IMG/VR virus record: IMGVR_UViG_3300008262_003509
Coordinates: 1-20,463 of that record
DNA length: 20,463 bases
Direction: 5' to 3' (one strand)
Origin: a virus
Part shown: positions 4,453-15,870 of the stretch, in pieces
How the letters are laid out: each line of letters begins with the position of its first letter
How positions within the stretch are numbered: the first letter of the stretch is position 1
Program-made: the position numbers and the translations under genes
The notes under the pieces: generated by a model
What the model saw: the letters and a program-made list of their open reading frames with translations, nothing else
Told to the model about the DNA's origin: nothing
Databases searched by the model: none

Positions 4453-5481
4453 TTATTTTATCCAAATTGGGTTGTTGTCTGGACCACGGAAGTCTTTCTT
4501 CCAGTTTTCCTGAACTAATTTAATTACATCTTGTGGCATGTGAACATATTCCAGTTCAGTTGCCATTTGACCACCGTTCTTATAACTCCAATCAAAGAAT
4601 TTGAGAACTGCACGGCCTGTCAATGTATCTGCTTGTTGCTTGTGCATCAGAATGAAACTTGCACCTGTTGCTGGCCAAGCATCTTTACCTGTTTGCCATG
4701 TTAATAATAAGTACATTCCTGGTGCATTAGCCCAATCCGCATTAGCTGCCGCTGCTTTGAATGTGCTATCATCAGGCAATACAAAGTTACCATCACGATT
4801 CTTCAATGCTGCGTAAGGGATCTTGTTGCGTTTTGCGTATGCGTATTCGACATAACCAAATGCTCCTTTGATACGCTGAACCTGTGCGGCAACACCTTCA
4901 TTACCTTTACCACCTACACCCGTTGGCCATTTAACTGCTGTGCCTTCACCTACAGTCTTTTGAAAGTCTGCGTTGGCTTTGCCTAAGAAATTGGTCCAGA
5001 TGAATGTTGTACCCGAACCGTCAGCACGATGTACAACTGTGATATTCATTGCAGGTAAGTTTACACCAGGATTTAATTCTACAATTGCTTTATCATTCCA
5101 TTTAGTAATTTTACCTAGATGAATGTTTGCGATAACATCGGGTGTCAACTTTAGTTTACCAGCATCGATACCATCAAGATTATAAACTGGTACAACACCA
5201 CCAATGATTGCTGGAAACTGAACAAGACCCTCTTTGTCTAATTCTTCTTTCTTCAATGGCATATCACTTGCGCCAAAATCAACTGTCTTTGCTTTGATTT
5301 GACGAATGCCACCGCCCGAGCCGATTGATTGATAATTTAGACCAATGCCAGTTTGAGCTTTATATGCCTCTGCCCACTTAGCATAAATTGGGAATGGGAA
5401 TGTTGCACCTGCTCCGGTAAATTCTGCTGCTGATACTACAGATGATGCTGCTAAAAGTAATGCCATTAGATATTTCGTCAT
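4453..5481 (-). CDS. pstS: Phosphate ABC transporter substrate-binding protein PstS
   Basis: 342 aa, ATG start with AGGAG 6-7 nt upstream. Residues 1-18 form a Sec signal peptide (Lys, hydrophobic core LMALLLAASSV, SAA cleavage region), so it is exported to the periplasm. FTGAGATFPFPIYAKW, SIGSGGG, DFGASDMPL and RADGSGTTFIWTNFL are PstS hallmarks around the phosphate-binding Ser/Thr/Asp residues. Full length for the family, with no truncation. It captures phosphate for the host PstCAB importer; no pstC, pstA or pstB is in the window, so it must use the host's. Base composition looks less AT-rich than neighbouring genes, in line with host origin. Three PhoB-box-like repeats and several TATAAT-like boxes lie upstream, suggesting control by the host PhoBR system. 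Confidence 0.96.
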   Translation of the reverse strand: MTKYLMALLLAASSVVSAAEFTGAGATFPFPIYAKWAEAYKAQTGIGLNYQSIGSGGGIRQIKAKTVDFGASDMPLKKEELDKEGLVQFPAIIGGVVPVYNLDGIDAGKLKLTPDVIANIHLGKITKWNDKAIVELNPGVNLPAMNITVVHRADGSGTTFIWTNFLGKANADFQKTVGEGTAVKWPTGVGGKGNEGVAAQVQRIKGAFGYVEYAYAKRNKIPYAALKNRDGNFVLPDDSTFKAAAANADWANAPGMYLLLTWQTGKDAWPATGASFILMHKQQADTLTGRAVLKFFDWSYKNGGQMATELEYVHMPQDVIKLVQENWKKDFRGPDNNPIWIK

Positions 5482-5548: not shown

Positions 5549-5577
5549 CTGAAACAATTCTGTAAGGTTACTGTAAG
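5549..5577 (-). promoter_or_regulatory. PhoB-box-like direct repeats upstream of pstS
   Basis: Read on the plus strand, CTGAAAC, CTGTAAG and CTGTAAG start at 5549, 5560 and 5571, an exact 11-nt period; a degenerate CTAAAAT follows at 5582. The E. coli Pho box is two CTGTCAT-type 7-mers with the same 11-nt period. The two best units match CTGTCAT at 5 of 7 positions. The array overlaps the end of the ArnA-like gene and lies upstream of pstS, but its motif orientation is opposite to pstS transcription. Host PhoB control is inferred. Confidence 0.55.
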
Positions 5578-6566
5578 GAATCTAAAATATTCTCAAGTGA
5601 ATCGGGGAAAGTATATTTAGGTGCCCACCCCAAAGCATTGCCAATTGCGTTAATACTAGGAACTCTGCTGGTAACATCTTGATAGCCCGAACCATAGAAG
5701 TCTCCGCTGGACTTAACTTTAATATCTGCATTATCAATAACGCCTCTGCTCTTCATTCGATCGATCAATAGAACAGCAACATCTCGTACAGATAGATTAT
5801 TCCAAGGATTGCCTACGTTAAAGATTTTTCCGTTAGACTTATCCTCATTCAATAAAATAAGTTTCAGTGCATCTACGCCATCTCTAACATCTGTAAAACA
5901 TCTTTTCTGGTGGCCACCATCGACTAATGTAACTTCTTTACGTTGAATAGCATCACCCATAAGCTGAGTAATTAGACGAGAGGAACCTTCAGATGTAGAC
6001 TCCAGCGAATCCAAATAAGGACCTACCCAGTTAAATGGTCGGAACAAAGTGAACCTAAAAGGACTATCTTGATTCATTGCGAAAATTACTCTATCCAATA
6101 ATTGTTTAGAGCAAGCATAAATCCAACGGGAATACTTAATAGGACCATATACCAGATCAGAACTATCCTCATCAAAAGGTGCGGTACTCTTACCATATAC
6201 CTCAGATGTGGATGGGAAAATAATTCTTTTGTTCAAAGCATGGGCAAGTTTAATAACTCGCAAGTTTTCCTCAAAGTCTAATTGAAATACTCTAAGAGGT
6301 TGTTCCACATAAAGTTTTGGAGTAGCAATTGCTACCAAGGGCATAACAACATCGCATTCATGAATAAGAGAATCTACGAGATCTCTGTCTTTCATGATGT
6401 CTGCTTTGTGAAAAGTAAATCTGCTATCCTGCGGTAACATATTTACTCTTGCAGTGTTTAAATCTATACCAGTAATAGACCAATCTTTAAAATTATCATC
6501 TTTTAAAATAGAATCAGTGAGGTGATAACCAATAAATCCGTCAACGCCCAAAATTAAGAGTTTCAT
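5568..6566 (-). CDS. ArnA dehydrogenase-like UDP-glucuronate decarboxylase
   Basis: 332 aa, ATG start with AAAGG upstream, immediately after the previous stop. It is an extended SDR with NAD motif GVDGFIG (7-13) and catalytic PSTSEVYG (118-125, Ser121/Glu122) and Tyr150-x3-Lys154. MPLVAIATP, FELDFEENL-like FQLDFEENL, FRPFNWVGP and LVDGGHQKRCFTD closely match, from memory, the C-terminal domain of E. coli ArnA, which oxidatively decarboxylates UDP-glucuronate to the UDP-4-keto-pentose in lipid A L-Ara4N synthesis. Arg301 in SRVPSI aligns with the ArnA HRKPSI region. The ArnA formyltransferase domain is absent. As last gene of a four-gene sugar cassette it probably makes a UDP-sugar intermediate; an epimerase or UDP-xylose synthase activity is the main alternative. 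Confidence 0.88.
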   Translation of the reverse strand: MKLLILGVDGFIGYHLTDSILKDDNFKDWSITGIDLNTARVNMLPQDSRFTFHKADIMKDRDLVDSLIHECDVVMPLVAIATPKLYVEQPLRVFQLDFEENLRVIKLAHALNKRIIFPSTSEVYGKSTAPFDEDSSDLVYGPIKYSRWIYACSKQLLDRVIFAMNQDSPFRFTLFRPFNWVGPYLDSLESTSEGSSRLITQLMGDAIQRKEVTLVDGGHQKRCFTDVRDGVDALKLILLNEDKSNGKIFNVGNPWNNLSVRDVAVLLIDRMKSRGVIDNADIKVKSSGDFYGSGYQDVTSRVPSINAIGNALGWAPKYTFPDSLENILDSLQ

Positions 6567-7304
6567 TTATAGCCTTTCTAAACGTAAATTCTCAGTGTTT
6601 ATTATAATGTCTTTTAGTTGTGAGGTAATACAATCCTCATTCTCAAATGTTGAAAATGCATCGACCCCGTGTTTACTTTTTATGTGAATGCTGTTGTTTG
6701 CCCCAAATGTTAAAACAATAGTCTCATCTGCGGTTTTAACTATGGTTTTTAATTCTCGCATTTCTCCATGTTTTATTCTAAAACTGGAAATTTTATCTAT
6801 TAGATAACTACCCGCATTAGAAACATAAAATTGATTATCGCTACCTTTTATATAATTGTCAATGGACATTATATGAGGAATCCATTCAGAAATCAATCCC
6901 TTTTCTATAGTCCAGTCATGTAAAATGCTAATTATATTTTCTTTAAAGGGTTCCAAAATATCAAAAACTTTTGAATACCTATACTGACTTAAGATAAAGA
7001 TAGGAATTCGCTTGGAAACAGACCAATCCTTGGCAGCTAGTTTTTCTTTAGCATCAGAGAATCCTTTTTCTACAAAAATAATATTTGGATTGAATCTACT
7101 CGAATGAATAATATCTGCAAGATGATCTTTAGTTGCAGATGCTATAAAAACAGGTATTCTTTGTTTTTGATTAGAAACATTTTCTCTGGTAAACTTTGTT
7201 GCCAGAGGATTATTTCCTATAAGAATAGATTCAAATCCAAATGATTTAAGTTTAATTTGTAGTAACTGAGACCATTTACCTGATCCATAAATTACTGCAT
7301 GCAA
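6567..7304 (-). CDS. Gfo/Idh/MocA-like Rossmann protein
   Basis: 245 aa from a TTG start at 7304, chosen because GGAG lies 7 nt upstream and no in-frame ATG is near; it overlaps the methyltransferase end by 13 nt. The N-terminus is a Rossmann start (VIYGSGKWSQLL). VFIASATKDH and FVEKGFS occupy the places of the conserved (S/T)P..H and EKP motifs of Gfo/Idh/MocA oxidoreductases, although the EKP proline is replaced by Gly. It is shorter than typical members (about 330-350 aa), and the C-terminal half is poorly recognisable. A sugar oxidoreductase acting on a nucleotide-sugar intermediate fits its neighbours; a degenerate or non-catalytic homologue is possible. Confidence 0.7.
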   Translation of the reverse strand: MHAVIYGSGKWSQLLQIKLKSFGFESILIGNNPLATKFTRENVSNQKQRIPVFIASATKDHLADIIHSSRFNPNIIFVEKGFSDAKEKLAAKDWSVSKRIPIFILSQYRYSKVFDILEPFKENIISILHDWTIEKGLISEWIPHIMSIDNYIKGSDNQFYVSNAGSYLIDKISSFRIKHGEMRELKTIVKTADETIVLTFGANNSIHIKSKHGVDAFSTFENEDCITSQLKDIIINTENLRLERL

Positions 7305-8425
7305 AGAATTTCTCCAGTATGTCCACGTTCTACAAGTTTACGCTTAATATCTTCGTAAACATTCCATGCTGTAATTAATACTAGAGCATTCTTATCCATG
7401 TTCTCTGGCTGGGTAATCATGATATTTGTTCCGGGGAAATAGCAACCCTGCTTTAACTCATTATCATCAACTACTCCGATAAGTTTTTCATCAACCATAT
7501 CTAAAGTATAAAGAGCGGTGACTGCTTTAGCTGCTGCTCCATATGCAATAAATTGTCTATCTCCGATTAATTGCTTCATTTTAGTTTGGCGAGCTGCAAT
7601 TAAGTCAACGACATTTTCAAATGAATTCGAATCTAGAGATTCTAAAGGTATCTCAGAAGTTCCTTCTTTTTTCCTAACATATGCTCTGAAGCTAATACCA
7701 TGAGTGTTAATCATGTGTACGCTTTCAACAACTAGCCCATGTGCCTCGCATAATTTTGAGAATGAATGTGGTGTGTAATAATCAATATGTTCATGATAAA
7801 CATTGTCAAGATATTTACCCGAAGAAATTCCATCACGATGCCCACACTCTGCAACAAGAAGACCATTTGGCTTTAGAGCCATAGAAATGCCTTCCATCAC
7901 ATCATGCATATCAGGAATATGTGCTAGAACATTATTAGCACATACTACATCGAAGTAATTTCTCCATTCATTGTTATCGACTAACTTTGTGCTGAAGAAA
8001 TCTGTGTAGACAGGAATTTTATTTTCTACATGATCTCGTTTTAGATATTCTGATGGTTCAACACCATATACAATCCACTTTTTATCTTTAAATTGCTGCA
8101 GCAAGTACCCATCATTACTACCAATTTCCAAAACCGAACCTGGGGTATCATAAAAACCAGATACGGTGTTAGCATATTCAGCAAAATGATTTCTAAATGA
8201 ATTAGAAACACCTGACTTGTATCTGTAGGTTGAGAATACTGTATTTGGTTCAGGTGCAGAGGCTAACTGCAAATGTCCGCAGTTAGAACAATAATTTAGT
8301 TCTAAGGGAAACTTGTCATAGTTAGGTTCATAGAATAAAGCATTGGCTACCGGAGAATCCGGTAAGGATAACCAAGGCTCTAACTTATCATTTCCGCAGC
8401 AGCGGCATACATCATACGTTTTCAT
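7292..8425 (-). CDS. SAM-dependent sugar C-methyltransferase
   Basis: 377 aa from the ATG at 8425. A longer frame from 8467 exists, but its extra 14 residues overlap the upstream cupin and do not look like the family. The N-terminal zinc domain has C7/C10 and C46/C49 (YDVCRCCGN, NYCSNCGHLQL), followed by the YRYKSGVS signature. The SAM site is EIGSNDG at 100-106. The C-terminal domain (FIAYGAAAKAVTAL, GVVDDN, ending in ILITAWN-like VLITAWN) matches NovU/TylC3-type C-methyltransferases, which methylate C-3 of 4-keto-sugar nucleotides. With a cupin, a Gfo/Idh-like enzyme and an ArnA-like enzyme around it, a branched or methylated sugar is the likely product. The start overlaps the cupin stop by 14 nt, implying coupling. 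Confidence 0.88.
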   Translation of the reverse strand: MKTYDVCRCCGNDKLEPWLSLPDSPVANALFYEPNYDKFPLELNYCSNCGHLQLASAPEPNTVFSTYRYKSGVSNSFRNHFAEYANTVSGFYDTPGSVLEIGSNDGYLLQQFKDKKWIVYGVEPSEYLKRDHVENKIPVYTDFFSTKLVDNNEWRNYFDVVCANNVLAHIPDMHDVMEGISMALKPNGLLVAECGHRDGISSGKYLDNVYHEHIDYYTPHSFSKLCEAHGLVVESVHMINTHGISFRAYVRKKEGTSEIPLESLDSNSFENVVDLIAARQTKMKQLIGDRQFIAYGAAAKAVTALYTLDMVDEKLIGVVDDNELKQGCYFPGTNIMITQPENMDKNALVLITAWNVYEDIKRKLVERGHTGEILCMQ

Positions 8426-8804
8426 ATTGTTCGTGCAATGGAGTAATCTTAACAATGTCCTCATCATATGTCATAGCATCTCTTTTATGCTCGGACACTA
8501 CAACCATAGTTGAATCATCAGTAAAAACCATCTCATGATCAATTAAAGGACCTGTCTTAAAAAGATCTCCTGCTACGAACTGTTCTTTGTGAATTTTAGT
8601 TTCACCGTGATTACGCCAATAGTAATCCATAGTACCTGTTACTAAAAAACAAGTGTGTGTATCTGTTTTATGATAATGATTGGCACGTAAAGCGCCTTTC
8701 TTTGACCAAATCATTTGTACATTTGCGAAGTCATGAACGATGGGTAAAATTTTACCGCGATGATCTTCAAAACCTTCTTCAAGCTGAAGTTTATGAGTTT
8801 CCAT
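8412..8804 (-). CDS. Sugar-nucleotide cupin (RmlC/WxcM-like)
   Basis: 130 aa, ATG start with AAAGGA upstream. A single cupin domain: GFEDHRGKILPI start, ANHYHKTDTH metal-binding-like motif (around residues 41-50), LVTGTMDYYW strand and AGDLFKTGPLIDH second motif. This layout is typical of RmlC-like, WxcM and FdtA-type sugar-nucleotide isomerases or epimerases of 4-keto-deoxysugars. It is first in the tightly packed cassette with the C-methyltransferase. The precise reaction cannot be read from sequence, and a non-enzymatic sugar-binding cupin remains possible. Confidence 0.78.
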   Translation of the reverse strand: METHKLQLEEGFEDHRGKILPIVHDFANVQMIWSKKGALRANHYHKTDTHTCFLVTGTMDYYWRNHGETKIHKEQFVAGDLFKTGPLIDHEMVFTDDSTMVVVSEHKRDAMTYDEDIVKITPLHEQYENV

Positions 8805-10600: not shown

Positions 10601-11072
10601 TTAACCAACTCTCTACAAATTGTATAGTTTCATTTGCATTAGTATGATGAACTGCAGCACCACCTGCTTTCTGAAATGCAGTAATAATACTCAATGTATC
10701 ATCAATCAATAAAGAATTTTTATTTGCATATCCCGGTTTATATTGTTTGCCAGGAACAAAGATCGCAGGATAGTTAATAGAGCGATCAGTTAACCATTTT
10801 TGTTTTTGATTGGATATACTGTTATGATCATTGAAGCCTCCGGTAGAAGATAGTATCGCTTTTTGTATATCCAAAGACTTTAGATAGTAAAGAAGACTTT
10901 GTGCTTCGGACATCCAATCAAAAGAAGCGAAATGCTCATCATCAATTAAAGTTCTCCACCTCTCACCAAATTTTTCATCTCGTTTTTCGCCAGGTTCGTG
11001 ATTGAAAAGCTCAATATATCGACGATTAAAGTCTGCTATTACACCATCCATGTCAATGTAAATAATTTTCAT
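10593..11072 (-). CDS. HAD-family 5'(3')-nucleotidase-like phosphatase
   Basis: 159 aa, ATG start overlapping the ligase end by 4 nt (ATGA). Motif I is YIDMDGVIADF (Asp7 nucleophile, Asp9 acid/base), motif II is LSSTGG and motif III is LIDDT. The length and the DMDGVIADF start fit the small deoxyribonucleotidase-like HAD proteins found in phages, which dephosphorylate (deoxy)nucleoside monophosphates or nucleic-acid ends. It lies directly after DNA ligase, so a nucleotide-pool or DNA-end role is plausible. The substrate cannot be read from sequence. Confidence 0.85.
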   Translation of the reverse strand: MKIIYIDMDGVIADFNRRYIELFNHEPGEKRDEKFGERWRTLIDDEHFASFDWMSEAQSLLYYLKSLDIQKAILSSTGGFNDHNSISNQKQKWLTDRSINYPAIFVPGKQYKPGYANKNSLLIDDTLSIITAFQKAGGAAVHHTNANETIQFVESWLND

Positions 11073-12394
11073 TTTATCTTTATAGAAACATCTGCAATAT
11101 CTTTATCTTCACGAAGTTCAATGAACACCGGAAGGAATAAGGACTCAACATTCCCACCTTTATCCTGTATACGTGCATTATATTTTACTGTAGCAATTTT
11201 TCCTATTACTTTTTTGGTATAAGCTTCTCTTTGTTCGTCACTATAACCTGATCCTACATTTACGCGAATTTTGCCATCGTCAGATTCGCATACCAGTGCA
11301 CCAAGTCGACCTTTGTTTTTACCTGTGCCTTCTTCCCAATCTACTACACGCAGATCACACTCAAGTTCACCCTTAAATTTAATTTGCCCCTTCGATCGTT
11401 TGTCTTCCCAAATACCATTCTTTGATTTTAGAATAGTACCTTCTTGACCTTCAGCAAGAAACTTCTCAAAAATTCTTTGCGCGGTATATAGGTTATCTAC
11501 TTCTTTAGTCCATACTAGATCAATGTAGATTCCGAATTGTGGGAATAAACTTTTGACATGGGATATAGCATTAGATACTTTAGCTAATCTAATATTGTAT
11601 GCCTCATCACTAACGCCCTTAGTGAAATCCTCATACGATATAGCATCCCATAGTGTAGCTCTTACCTGCAAAGCCTCATCATTAGACATGGTTCCTTTGA
11701 TGGATTTTGACAAGATACCATTGCCTGTTTGTCTGTTGACGGGTTTGCCTGCAAAATCTGCAACAAGCAGTTCGCCATCAAACACCATATCCTGTTTATA
11801 GTGTTCTGCTAGTTTAACAAAAGGAACTGCGAAAGATTTATTTGGAATACTAAGCTCTTTGCCATTACGAGATCTAAACTCTACTTCTCCGTTTTTAACA
11901 ATTGCGTTGAATCGCATTCCGTCGAGCTTAAGCTGTACGAGAGCCGGCCATTGGATTTTATCAACGAGCTTTTGGTCGTATCCAGAAGCCAACATAACCG
12001 GGTACGTCGAGACAAGACCTGGCCAAATTTTGTTTGCTGTTGCTTCTGATACCCCGCATCGGAGATCTTTTGCAATAATACGCTCAATGATTTTTGCATC
12101 CTCAGGTTCCAGTTTAGATAGTACTGTAGTTAAGTGTTCAATTGCTGCATTGCCTGTTACCTCACGGCTGGATAACCTAGATAGCTGATCCATTCCTTCT
12201 TGTAAAGCCCAATAAGGTGCATTGGATTCATACTTCGGAATTTTTCTAATATAAAATTGAACAAATGGGTCTAATGCCAAATAAAACACTCGTTGTAGTA
12301 TTTCGTTTGACTTGTTCTTAATTAGAATCGCCTCTTTCGCAAGGCGAGAATTATCCGAAGCAAGCTGATCAAAAATATTATAAATTTGGCTCAT
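11069..12394 (-). CDS. ATP-dependent DNA ligase (T4 gp30-like)
   Basis: 441 aa, ATG start with a strong AGGAGG site about 6 nt upstream. Nucleotidyltransferase motifs appear in order: I VQLKLDGMRF with adenylated Lys156, III VFDGELLV, IV EGTILKS and V IKFKGELECD. The N-terminal helical domain and C-terminal OB-fold are both present, and length is a little under T4 gp30 (487 aa). It seals nicks in replication, repair and recombination using ATP. It has its own near-perfect sigma70 promoter, so it is probably an early gene, and its stop overlaps the start of the HAD gene. Confidence 0.96.
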   Translation of the reverse strand: MSQIYNIFDQLASDNSRLAKEAILIKNKSNEILQRVFYLALDPFVQFYIRKIPKYESNAPYWALQEGMDQLSRLSSREVTGNAAIEHLTTVLSKLEPEDAKIIERIIAKDLRCGVSEATANKIWPGLVSTYPVMLASGYDQKLVDKIQWPALVQLKLDGMRFNAIVKNGEVEFRSRNGKELSIPNKSFAVPFVKLAEHYKQDMVFDGELLVADFAGKPVNRQTGNGILSKSIKGTMSNDEALQVRATLWDAISYEDFTKGVSDEAYNIRLAKVSNAISHVKSLFPQFGIYIDLVWTKEVDNLYTAQRIFEKFLAEGQEGTILKSKNGIWEDKRSKGQIKFKGELECDLRVVDWEEGTGKNKGRLGALVCESDDGKIRVNVGSGYSDEQREAYTKKVIGKIATVKYNARIQDKGGNVESLFLPVFIELREDKDIADVSIKIK

Positions 12395-12887: not shown

Positions 12888-13158
12888 ATTGTTTGCTCAT
12901 AGTAGTTGTCTGTGTAATAGTTTCATAGAGAGTTTCAAACTCTTCATGACTTTGAACTTCTTGTTGGAAATTCTGCTTGTGATATACCTTCGCTAATTTA
13001 CGGAAGGTCTTCTTAGAAAGATTCTGTTCCTCGCAAATAGTATTGATGGCATTTTTGATGAAATCTCGCTCACTCTCAATACGAGTCATAGAATCACTAA
13101 TTTCTTTCATGCAATCGTAAATTGCTTTACGATCTGCAGGATTTGATGGTATGCTCAT
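12880..13158 (-). CDS. dsbA: DsbA-like double-stranded DNA-binding protein
   Basis: 92 aa, ATG start with AAGGAG about 7 nt upstream. The helical pattern and the block KTFRKLAKVYHKQNFQ match T4 DsbA (89 aa, with MFNRLLALYHKDN), and the C-terminal EEFETLYETI matches its EEVVELYDTV. T4 DsbA binds double-stranded DNA and stimulates late transcription. In T4 it lies right after rnh. Here rnh is upstream on the same strand with three genes inserted, so synteny is loosely kept. It starts within the end of the nucleotidyltransferase fusion gene (4-nt overlap). Confidence 0.8.
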   Translation of the reverse strand: MSIPSNPADRKAIYDCMKEISDSMTRIESERDFIKNAINTICEEQNLSKKTFRKLAKVYHKQNFQQEVQSHEEFETLYETITQTTTMSKQYA

Positions 13159-13928
13159 GTGGTTCTCCTTTCAATATCTTCTTCAATACAATTATCTCCA
13201 TATTGGATTTCTACAATCTTTAATGGAGTATTACCTTCATTACAAAGTTGATGCCATTCTGTAGTACTAACGTGTAAATGATCAAACTTATTATAGATGC
13301 CTTTTAGTACCGTGTCGGTCTTGCGGGCATCAATAGTATATACAGTTGCTGTTCCTTCTGCCACAAACCAGTGTTCTGATCGTTGAAAATGTTTCTGCAT
13401 ACTAAGACACTTACCTGGCTCTACAGTAAGTTCTTTTACCTTAACTTCTTGTCCATAGTTATGTAAAGTCCTGTAGTATCCCCATGGACGATCTGTCTTA
13501 GGCGATTTCCATTCTTCTAATATCCAAGAGCTAGAATTCTTTTTATCCTCACCGCCAATACCAAAAGCAAATTCCAAATTATTATCTTGAATATCCATTT
13601 CTGGAATATTTGTTCTTGTTCTATCTCCACCATTCGCAAAAATGATTTTAGAACTAGGCCAGAACTCTCTTACTTTTCTAATTGCATCTTTTGCGCTACC
13701 ATCTGAGTCATCAAAATCTATGCACCAATCTACCATTCGAAGATTGTCTAGGATTTTTTGTCTTTCTACGAAAGGCATAAAGAATTTACCTTTTTTCCGA
13801 ATAAGCCAATCATCAGAATTTAGACCGGCGACTAGAGTATCACCTAAACTAGCTGCAGTTTTAAAATATGCAATATGTCCGGAGTGCAGAGGATCAAAGC
13901 CTCCGGTAACTAAAACGATTGTTCTCAT
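13155..13928 (-). CDS. Nucleotidyltransferase-mannose-6-P isomerase (cupin) fusion
   Basis: 257 aa from the ATG at 13928; a TTG codon just before is not preferred because the TGATG junction places the ATG on the upstream stop. Residues 1-140 are an HxGH nucleotidyltransferase: GGFDPLHSGH (HSGH 15-18), NGGDRT (99-104) and GGEDKKNSSSW (125-135), like the adenylyltransferase half of HldE/RfaE. Residues 146-257 are the cupin of type II mannose-6-phosphate isomerase (DRPWGYY, PGKCLSMQKH, RSEHWFV, TEWHQL, then EIQYGD), like the C-terminal part of ManC. The order resembles ManC, but with a different nucleotidyltransferase fold in front. It probably isomerises and activates a sugar phosphate; which nucleotide and sugar are unknown. 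It sits between phage replication genes. Confidence 0.88.
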   Translation of the reverse strand: MRTIVLVTGGFDPLHSGHIAYFKTAASLGDTLVAGLNSDDWLIRKKGKFFMPFVERQKILDNLRMVDWCIDFDDSDGSAKDAIRKVREFWPSSKIIFANGGDRTRTNIPEMDIQDNNLEFAFGIGGEDKKNSSSWILEEWKSPKTDRPWGYYRTLHNYGQEVKVKELTVEPGKCLSMQKHFQRSEHWFVAEGTATVYTIDARKTDTVLKGIYNKFDHLHVSTTEWHQLCNEGNTPLKIVEIQYGDNCIEEDIERRTT

Positions 13929-14317
13929 CAACGCCTCATACTAGAAATATCTTTTGCTTCTTTATCTGAAAAAATAGGAACTGCGTTAGACTTATGCATA
14001 GTACCTATGCCCATAATCTTATCGCCGGTATATTGCATCGGCGCACGACTAGAAACCGCACCAAGGTGCCCGGAGTCTACACTTTTAATGTGTTTTGTGC
14101 TACGATTTTCTGGTACCTTGGGTATAACTAATTTACGAGAAGTAAACTTAGAAACTTTTTTGGATTTGTTATTGGTCACACCATGACTAGACAAAAGTTC
14201 TTGCCAACTCCTATCTAAGTCACGAGCTTTCTGAGCTTGCTCTGCATTACGAAATTTTTGCTTGCCCTTTTTCTTACCGGCAGTAGACAACCAAGGGCCA
14301 ACCAAATGCATAGTCAT
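13928..14317 (-). CDS. Conserved basic T4-like phage protein, unknown
   Basis: 129 aa, ATG start with GGAG at 7-nt spacing; a second ATG two codons later is also possible. The protein is very basic: LVGPWLSTAGKKKGKQKF at the N-terminus, a Lys/Ser-rich linker, then GDKIMGIGTMHKSN and PIFSDKEAKDISSMRR at the C-terminus. Both ends are blocks I recognise as conserved in T4-like aquatic phages. DNA binding or a virion-linked role is possible from charge, but no function is known to me. A consensus promoter lies directly upstream, so it probably leads an early unit with the sugar fusion and dsbA. Confidence 0.82.
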   Translation of the reverse strand: MTMHLVGPWLSTAGKKKGKQKFRNAEQAQKARDLDRSWQELLSSHGVTNNKSKKVSKFTSRKLVIPKVPENRSTKHIKSVDSGHLGAVSSRAPMQYTGDKIMGIGTMHKSNAVPIFSDKEAKDISSMRR

Positions 14318-14348: not shown

Positions 14349-14377
14349 ATTATAACACCTTTATTAATATTTGTCAA
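14349..14377 (-). promoter_or_regulatory. Consensus sigma70 early promoter
   Basis: TTGACA (14377-14372), a 17-nt spacer ending TGT, then TATAAT (14354-14349) on the minus strand. It shares AGGTGTTATAATAT with the ligase promoter. The -35 lies inside the predicted -1-frame tail of the DUF6433-type gene. It would drive the genes from 14317 down to about 12439. Confidence 0.92.
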
Positions 14378-14525
14378 ATGCTTTGTATTTTCCATGATTA
14401 AAAACTCGTGGATCCATCTTTGGATCTATTGGAAAAGACCCCATATCTGACCATGTTTCCCTTGGTTCGGAATTTAATTGGTTCTCTTCTTTGAACCAGG
14501 TCAGGATGCGTCCAAAGAAGCTTTC
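14364..14525 (-). CDS. -1-frame extension of the DUF6433-type protein
   Basis: After slippage at 14525-14531 the reading frame continues from 14525 for 53 codons to TAA (14366-14364): ESFFGRILTWFKEENQ, then RETWSDMGSFPIDPKMDPRVF and a Lys/Tyr tail. This frame is open and reads like ordinary protein, but it has no ATG until residue 28 and no ribosome site, so it is best explained as the frameshifted end of the upstream gene. It would make a total of 208 aa instead of 162. An assembly indel is the main alternative. Confidence 0.68.
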   Translation of the reverse strand, partial: ESFFGRILTWFKEENQLNSEPRETWSDMGSFPIDPKMDPRVFNHGKYKAFDKY

Positions 14526-14531
14526 TTTTTT
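14486..14531 (-). promoter_or_regulatory. Programmed -1 frameshift signal
   Basis: In the reading frame of the 162-aa gene, codons 153-155 are CCA AAA AAG, giving the X-XXY-YYZ slippery heptamer A-AAA-AAG (14531-14525), the same as in E. coli dnaX. Four nt later a stem of 11 pairs (CTTCTTTGGAC with GTTCAAAGAAG, one G-U) encloses a 13-nt loop that contains the zero-frame TGA. Slippery site, short spacer and stem-loop together are the classic signal. Confidence 0.72.
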
Positions 14532-14989
14532 GGTTGTTTGATCTTAGCAGGCACCTTAACTTCAGCAGGCAAAAGATCCGGAAAGGCTTCTCGAACTAGA
14601 GCATCTTTTAAAGACTTATACTTTGTATCCAATTGTTTATCTTTAGCTAAGCAAACAAGTTCCGCTTCTGTCCAATGAATACCCTCTAACATTTGAACAA
14701 ATAACTGCTCTTTTCTCACTCTGGTTAGATTGATGTTTGGATCTAACCAAATATAGAAGCGTCTGAATTCTGCAAATAAATTAGTTTCAGAATATCCCGC
14801 TGGAACTGAAGTATCTTTTTTAAAGGGAGGTTCGCCTTCGGGCAAATAAACTTTTATCGCAGGATCAAAATTCATTCTAAGAATATTTCGAATTACGGGA
14901 TGATCATATGCTCGCAAGACTTTAATTTTAGATTCTTTAGTGGCTGCTTTTTCTACTTCGTCAAATACTTGTGGTATAGTAGTTCTCAT
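14501..14989 (-). CDS. DUF6433-like conserved phage protein, zero-frame product
   Basis: 162 aa, ATG start whose A is the last base of the rnh stop (TAATG), so coupled. MRTTIPQVFDEVEKA, YLPEGEPPFKK, GYSETNLFAEFRRFYIW and LEGIHWTEAELVCLAKDK are blocks I recall as the DUF6433 family of T4-like aquatic phages. Function is unknown. The C-terminus is Lys-rich (KVPAKIKQPKKKASLDAS) and overlaps the slippery heptamer at codons 153-155. A -1 slip would replace the last residues with a 53-aa tail. It lies between RNase H and the early promoter at 14349-14377, which suggests a role near replication. Confidence 0.85.
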   Translation of the reverse strand: MRTTIPQVFDEVEKAATKESKIKVLRAYDHPVIRNILRMNFDPAIKVYLPEGEPPFKKDTSVPAGYSETNLFAEFRRFYIWLDPNINLTRVRKEQLFVQMLEGIHWTEAELVCLAKDKQLDTKYKSLKDALVREAFPDLLPAEVKVPAKIKQPKKKASLDAS

Positions 14990-15870
14990 TAAAATTCCTC
15001 GATAAGTTCCATCATGTTCTTCATTCTATTTTGAACAAAGAAGTTAAGCAGCCTACTTTTATCTTTTTGTGGCTGATCTACATAACTATTTATGATAGCG
15101 GTTTTAACTTTTTCCGGTATGCTATCAAAATTAACTAGCTTTTTATTTCTTTGATAATTCTGTTTAAAGTCTACATCTTGAGGCATTAGTTCAGGATTCT
15201 TAAACCACTCATCTAACTTCTTTTGAGTGATTGGTTTTTGCCTCACACCATTTACGATGCTATCATCTGCAGATAGAACATTCGGAATGCCGTCGCCCTT
15301 ATCGCCTTTAATGATATGTTCAAATGCATATTTCTCAGGGCTAACGTCGGACTTCACAAATTTCTTTTGAATCGGTGAATATTGTTGCACGTTGTTCCAT
15401 TTTTGCAACTGAATAAAATCATGATCCCCGGATAGTACCAGAAAAGGTTTTGGTTCATCAAATAATCCACTAGTCAAATCATTTGTCTGAGACCACTCTG
15501 CTAATACTGCAATAATGTCATCTGCCTCGGCACCGTGGACGTTAATAACTTTATACGGGAAGTAATCATTGATCTCATCTCGTATCATACTAAGAGCTTC
15601 GAAAATGACCTTCCAATCAAAGCCAGAGTCCTCTCTTGCTTTTTTTCTACCTGCCTTGTAATACGAAAATTCTTCTCTGCGCCAATAGTTATAATTGTCG
15701 CAAGCAATAACTAGTTCGCCATATTTTTCTCCAAACTTTTGTTTATATCCCCGAATAGAATTAATAATCATATGGCGAAGCAAAGGAACTTCAATTTCAA
15801 TATCATTGCGACCACCTACTTCAGCCATTAGATTAGAAATAGCGGTCTGATTAAAATCAACGATCATCAT
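14989..15870 (-). CDS. rnh: RNase H / 5'-3' FEN nuclease (T4 rnh-like)
   Basis: 293 aa, first of two adjacent ATGs chosen; AAGGT lies about 10 nt upstream. It carries the acidic metal ligands of the FEN/T4 RNase H family: Asp5 (IVDFNQ), Asp58 (ACDNYNYWRREEFSYY), Glu115/Asp117/Asp118 (GAEADD), Asp149/Asp151 (SGDHD) and Asp190/Asp193 (KGDKGDGIPNV), the last in the helix-hairpin-helix-like region. Length is close to T4 RNase H (305 aa). It removes RNA primers and adjacent DNA in a 5'-3' direction from lagging-strand fragments, then ligase seals them; ligase is also in this window. Confidence 0.95.
   Translation of the reverse strand: MMIVDFNQTAISNLMAEVGGRNDIEIEVPLLRHMIINSIRGYKQKFGEKYGELVIACDNYNYWRREEFSYYKAGRKKAREDSGFDWKVIFEALSMIRDEINDYFPYKVINVHGAEADDIIAVLAEWSQTNDLTSGLFDEPKPFLVLSGDHDFIQLQKWNNVQQYSPIQKKFVKSDVSPEKYAFEHIIKGDKGDGIPNVLSADDSIVNGVRQKPITQKKLDEWFKNPELMPQDVDFKQNYQRNKKLVNFDSIPEKVKTAIINSYVDQPQKDKSRLLNFFVQNRMKNMMELIEEF

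Follow-up and report, generated by a model that had tools for sequence, protein, structure and literature searches.

Does a gene that ends after 162 amino acids (aa) in its own reading frame always end there? The question is raised by a DUF6433 gene on the window, the whole stretch of 20,463 nucleotides (nt) that was analyzed (positions 1 to 20,463 of IMG/VR virus record IMGVR_UViG_3300008262_003509), where a second frame, displaced by −1, stays open across the stop. The explanation that best accounts for the locus as a whole, to which we assign a probability of roughly 0.88, is a programmed −1 ribosomal frameshift that would join a domain of predicted DNA-binding type to a conserved tail, perhaps a tether. 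As far as sequence can tell, the frameshift site itself is genuine with high confidence. Some ribosomes would read on to the zero-frame TGA and yield the 162-aa form; others would slip one base back at a slippery heptamer, read the −1 frame and yield a 208-aa form with a conserved 53-residue tail. An in-frame X-XXY-YYZ heptamer, a downstream structure and an overlapping −1 frame under selection, as expected of programmed −1 frameshifting, are present here.

Coordinates are those of the window, and every feature given for this locus and its neighbors lies on the minus strand. The zero-frame gene (14501–14989) matches DUF6433 (PF20025, E 8.5e-31; 106.8 bits against a gathering cut-off of 38.9) and phrog_461, and its predicted helical domain (residues ~4–142) is followed by a Lys-rich linker. 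The 3′ end of the gene reads ...CAA CCA AAA AAG AAA GCT TCT TTG GAC GCA TCC TGA. The slippery heptamer A-AAA-AAG (14525–14531) stands in the zero-frame register, its first A being the third base of codon 153 (CCA) and the rest forming codons 154–155. A 4-nt spacer (14521–14524) leads to a putative stimulatory stem-loop of 11 base pairs (bp) plus 2 bp (14486–14520), which folds at −14.1 kcal/mol (z −2.1 against dinucleotide shuffles) and holds the zero-frame TGA (14501–14503, 28 nt after the heptamer start) in its loop. From the heptamer, whose G is shared by the first tail codon, 53 codons of the −1 frame (ESFFGRILTWFKEENQLNSEPRETWSDMGSFPIDPKMDPRVFNHGKYKAFDKY, 14367–14525) run without interruption up to a TAA (14364–14366) that ends the predicted 208-aa fusion; no ATG, GTG or TTG start occurs in the −1 frame of the window ahead of the conserved SDMGS segment. 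The preliminary description of this locus had named a DUF6433-type gene, the in-frame heptamer at codons 153–155, the 4-nt spacer with an 11-bp stem-loop around the stop, and an open 53-codon −1 frame without its own start; each was recovered, and the 162- and 208-aa products that it predicted follow in length from the reading frames.

Relatives were sought in IMG/VR, and the loci found, from environmental T4-like phages, are labelled L001, L002 and so on. The window protein retrieved 80 loci, or 44 distinct sequences after duplicate removal, and all 44 carry an in-frame A-AAA-AAR, a zero-frame stop shortly after it and the conserved −1 tail. A second search, made with an alignment of the tails, added further loci. 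Together, 172 loci have both parts, and all 172 place the tail at the −1 offset. These represent 73 distinct tail-bearing sequences, 72 of them with A-AAA-AAR (38 AAAAAAA and 34 AAAAAAG), and the tail is in the zero frame of the DUF6433 domain in none of the 73; the stop lies 28 nt from the heptamer in 65 of 72 homologues. Counts of heptamers in related sequences are not independent trials, and the contrast was drawn within the same genes, where it is clear: A-AAA-AAR occupies the junction in 26/26 divergent representatives and only 2/57 of the other Lys-Lys pairs. Likewise, the codon preceding AAA AAR has a final A in 65 of 65 cases, against 41% A at the four-fold sites of these genes. Chance, which had already been called unlikely, is hard to reconcile with these figures. 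Heptamer, hairpin and −1 tail were found together when the homologues were aligned, as the preliminary description had proposed to check. A tail in the zero frame with a one-base difference, which it had named as contrary to a frameshift, appears in no homologue. The relatives outside the tail group, from cyanophages and others, have no tail; the cyanophage homologues without the signal are also without the tail, and their genes end at a different junction.

A deeper search extended the pattern to lineages that mostly have no A-run. L184–L186 and L227–L234 carry C-CCT-TTG or C-CCT-TTA at the same junction and keep the −1 tail; L158 is grouped with L184–L186 for C-CCT-TTR, which is itself a canonical X-XXY-YYZ heptamer, and both kinds of heptamer are present in L161 and L230. 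In the domain tree a supported branch (97/94) separates the tail-bearing sequences from the rest, and two changes to C-CCT-TTR are needed among them. With the offset unchanged, repeated swapping of the slippery heptamer is not easily put down to polymerase slippage or to indels. As an observation apart, the tail of L227–L234, with C-CCT-TTA, ends in RQVRLRQPRKS and not in YRAFDK, and no clear hairpin comes right after the heptamer.

Across the homologues, a hairpin begins 4–6 nt after the heptamer. When fold energy was averaged over 44-nt windows in the 26 representatives, the gene-wide minimum fell just 3′ of the heptamer (−10.7 at +8 and −10.0 at +12, with a gene mean of −5.0 and a standard deviation of 1.4). 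In 41 aligned sequences 93% of the inner-stem cells are paired and two of the seven pairs have changed on both sides; as a control, sliding the 3′ arm by 1–3 columns lowered the pairing to 23–66%. A 12-row subset with a one-base bulge keeps 11/11 pairs in every sequence, three with both-sided changes, and the divergent L069 and L169 build comparable stems from different sequence. Randomizing the synonymous codons of the 3′ arm weakened the fold on average (mean z −1.19, negative in 19 of 25), which suggests that synonymous codon choice there favors the hairpin. Upstream, a Shine-Dalgarno-like 4-mer within 20 nt was found in 12 of the 26 representatives, with a background of 15%, and is absent from the window. 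The dnaX-type rule that had been invoked for this site is followed in its heptamer and 3′ hairpin, but a candidate for its upstream stimulator occurs in only those 12 representatives.

The tail itself behaves as coding sequence. For the tail in its −1 frame, the ratio of nonsynonymous to synonymous substitution (dN/dS) is 0.32–0.34. Pooled over pairs and taken beyond the zero-frame stop, it is 0.32, as compared with 0.82 and 1.60 for the other two frames; leaving out the last 8 codons gives 0.37 versus 0.84 and 1.57. Judged by these ratios, purifying selection acts on the tail in the −1 frame and in neither of the others. Its consensus, xxGFFERILTxFK...KExWSDxGxxPxDPxYDSRxFxxxxYRAFDKY, comprises a conserved segment of ~40 aa besides a predicted N-terminal amphipathic helix. 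The tail had no match in PHROGs, nothing significant in Pfam (best E 0.17), no relative in the PDB and no convincing match among 50,697 phage records, and no second copy of the tail or of the domain was found in three large related genomes.

What would the two forms do? AlphaFold gives the shared part a confident all-helical domain (mean predicted local distance difference test score, pLDDT, 87). In the Foldseek search DNA ligases occupy ranks 1–44, matched through their DNA-binding domains, and the structural matches include the DNA-binding domain of T4 ligase (6dt1; Z 14.3 over 128 residues, root-mean-square deviation 3.2), Pmar-Lig (Z 13.9) and a Rhizobium phage ligase (Z 11.1). Helical bundles may score high by chance, but here the list is uniform and the whole domain is covered. 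Pfam detects no ligase match in the DUF6433 protein. The gene directly follows the phage gene for a T4 rnh-type 5′-3′ exonuclease, or RNase H (14989–15870; PF02739, PF09293, phrog_107), and a phage DNA ligase (11069–12394; PF04675, PF01068, PF14743), with an N-terminal DNA-binding domain to which the DUF6433 domain may be distantly related, lies ~2 kb downstream. It is from the fold and this context that DNA binding is proposed, and a fold of this kind probably does mean DNA binding. The shared part would then be a free-standing domain related to the alpha-helical one with which T4-type ligases bind DNA, and its own target is probably nicked, flapped or duplex DNA. An identity of DUF6433 with the T4 gp33 coactivator (PF16805) was also considered and rejected, DUF6433 being the sole Pfam match and a separate gp33 gene being present in the three large related genomes.

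For the tail, tethering to a partner is the favored role. The hydrophobic moment of its helix (mean 0.73, range 0.56–0.87) exceeds the 99th percentile for 11-mers of the domain itself, and would suit a membrane-binding or protein-docking helix. The helix (FFxRIxxWFK) and the conserved segment could anchor the 208-aa form to the sliding clamp, to another replisome protein or to the membrane, and the frameshift would fix the ratio of free to tethered DNA-binding protein. That such a ratio tunes phage DNA replication or Okazaki-fragment maturation is offered as a tentative proposal, and any particular tether is at best equally speculative.

Two of these tethers can be compared, both taking the frameshift as real. 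The tail may be a membrane-targeting amphipathic helix of the MinD/FtsA kind, the sequences of the MinD and FtsA helices being general knowledge. The moment of 0.56–0.87, the bulky aromatic face and the Lys or Arg residues that flank the helix (FFERILTWFK / FLKRIFGFLKRE) in many members speak for this; however, about one representative in four has a helix with a net charge of 0, and the conserved WSD...DP..D.R segment is left without explanation. We regard a membrane role as rather unlikely. Alternatively, the tail may be a peptide that binds the sliding clamp and brings the DNA-binding domain to it. This agrees with the ligase-type fold and the neighboring RNase H, and with the short motifs through which T4 ligase and polymerase bind the gp45 clamp (PMC6698739, PMC7892883). 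The polymerases of related phages also have a C-terminal ATLEGLF, loosely like FERIL, yet the resemblance is slight and amounts to hydrophobic spacing. Moreover, a clamp motif is much shorter than the tail, in which conservation is highest outside the helix; clamp binding, too, is a minority possibility.

Several observations weigh against a frameshift to a tethering tail. The subgroups do not share one stem register, and L159 and the sequences with C-CCT-TTA have a weak hairpin. Modelled alone, the tail reaches a pLDDT of 68 with one clear helix only (the first ~11 residues), and the alignment by hhalign of DUF6433 with the DNA-binding domain of the phage's own ligase is collinear and weak (E 6.7e-4, probability 27%). 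Where the tail ends (AFDK), some of the conservation at the nucleotide level coincides with the −35 box of a promoter that matches the sigma-70 consensus perfectly (14349–14377; TTGACA-N17-TATAAT, extended by a TG before the −10). This promoter covers the last tail codons and probably drives the next gene (13928–14317; phrog_27048, 129 aa, function not assigned). The promoter is found at the same place and spacing in 64 of 65 homologues. A promoter footprint alone, considered as the source of the conservation, is partly true for AFDK, yet the selection persists without the last 8 codons; the FD residues are retained in 12 sequences that use GAT, where the −35 box cannot sit on those codons. 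In some homologues, such as L115, the −35 box was seen 3′ of the tail stop. Finally, L218 has no slippery site. Its zero-frame stop overlaps an in-frame ATG (TGATG; AAGTGATGG), and its tail begins MEWFFGKK, just after the DUF6433 match at 1501–1923. This suggests a natural switch from frameshift to re-initiation, and L218 might produce its tail as a peptide of its own.

The case of L218 bears on the view that the tail is in general a separate small protein, for which ribosomes would re-initiate past the zero-frame stop. In cyanophages the homologous gene and the one after it overlap at junctions similar to the TGATG of L218, and roughly half of all sequences contain a TTG or GTG close to the stop. 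In the other half, however, no possible −1 start codon is close to the junction; the conserved FFER of the tail is located upstream of the zero-frame stop, and re-initiation leaves the heptamer unexplained. As an account of the family it is highly improbable.

Still less probable is transcriptional slippage on the A-run, by which messages one base shorter or two bases longer would be read by an unshifted ribosome. Runs of 6–7 A do occur in 72 of the 73 sequences, but productive transcript slippage in bacteria usually requires longer runs. The replacement of the A-run by C-CCT-TTR in two lineages argues strongly against slippage, and the hairpin 4–6 nt downstream with its compensatory changes fits ribosomal stimulation. 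An assembly or sequencing indel, which the preliminary description had held to be the key alternative and which would make the true gene one continuous 208-aa frame, has a negligible chance of being right: a six-A run is a classic error site and the tail resembles real protein, but it is refuted by contigs L001 and L002 from two other samples, identical to the window across gene and tail, while the 73 distinct sequences from many samples share the −1 offset with none in frame, as do the C-CCT-TTR lineages without an A-run.

Elsewhere in the window, three more minus-strand genes were noted. One encodes a PstS phosphate-binding protein (4453–5481), whose nearest cellular relatives are those of Oxalobacteraceae/Undibacterium and other Burkholderiales (up to 75% identity), a hint of a freshwater betaproteobacterial host. 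A second (13155–13931) combines a cytidylyltransferase-like domain with a mannose-6-phosphate isomerase C-terminal/cupin domain, and lies not far from apparent sugar-nucleotide genes (5568–8804). The third (1724–2854) codes for 376 aa of degenerate repeats (RGYxxGG...GIxFSTET...), perhaps a repeat-rich fiber or adhesin-like protein. An Rfam scan of the window gave no match.

DUF6433 occurs in nearly 500 cyanophage and other phage records, and standard annotation truncates the tail-bearing protein and overlooks its tail. A ligase-type DNA-binding domain, as the structural models suggest, would give the family its first testable activity. The evolutionary record of the site is unusually clear, with dozens of natural variants, a change from A-AAA-AAR to C-CCT-TTR and, in L218, a possible change of mechanism. 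The preliminary description knew of no report of a frameshift in this family; likewise, the open-licence PMC literature yielded no paper on DUF6433 and no report of this frameshift site.

How does the site compare with known systems? That a short spacer parts the dnaX heptamer from its stem-loop is general knowledge. Escherichia coli dnaX (tau/gamma) has the same A-AAA-AAG, followed within a few nt by a 3′ stem-loop (PMC5009743). There, however, the frameshift leads to the short product, which ends one codon later, whereas here it leads to the long one, as has been suggested for a few other bacterial dnaX genes; the Shine-Dalgarno-like stimulator of dnaX is found in only some DUF6433 members and the proteins are unrelated. 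Known cases of frameshifting in phages mostly concern structural or assembly genes, and PMC10885494 presents them in the same way. The tail-assembly chaperone of the lambda G/GT type resembles the present case in a −1 shift near the end of a phage reading frame that gives a longer minor isoform, but serves structural assembly, whereas the DUF6433 protein is of DNA-metabolism type and is encoded beside rnh; for the chaperone, a different route has been reported in some T4-like phages (Vladimirov 2022, as cited in PMC10885494). Carboxysome cso2 (CsoS2) also yields a short and a long isoform by a frameshift with a 3′ stem-loop stimulator (PMC5009743), although its product is a bacterial shell protein unrelated in sequence. 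The bypassing in T4 gene 60 is likewise a translational recoding in a DNA-metabolism gene of a T4-like phage (PMC5009743), but it skips a coding gap rather than slipping by −1, and the two are not related. In cyanophages, T4-GC 313 is of the DUF6433 family, and the gene after it, T4-GC 314, is an overlapping neighbor in the −1 frame. T4-GC 314, however, starts by itself at an overlap of TGATG or GTGA type, with no junction heptamer, and codes for an unrelated protein, and a derivation of the tail from it was ruled out on these grounds. Among these systems, −1 frameshifting is well known, and the DUF6433 family, with its product of DNA-binding type, appears to be a new instance of it.
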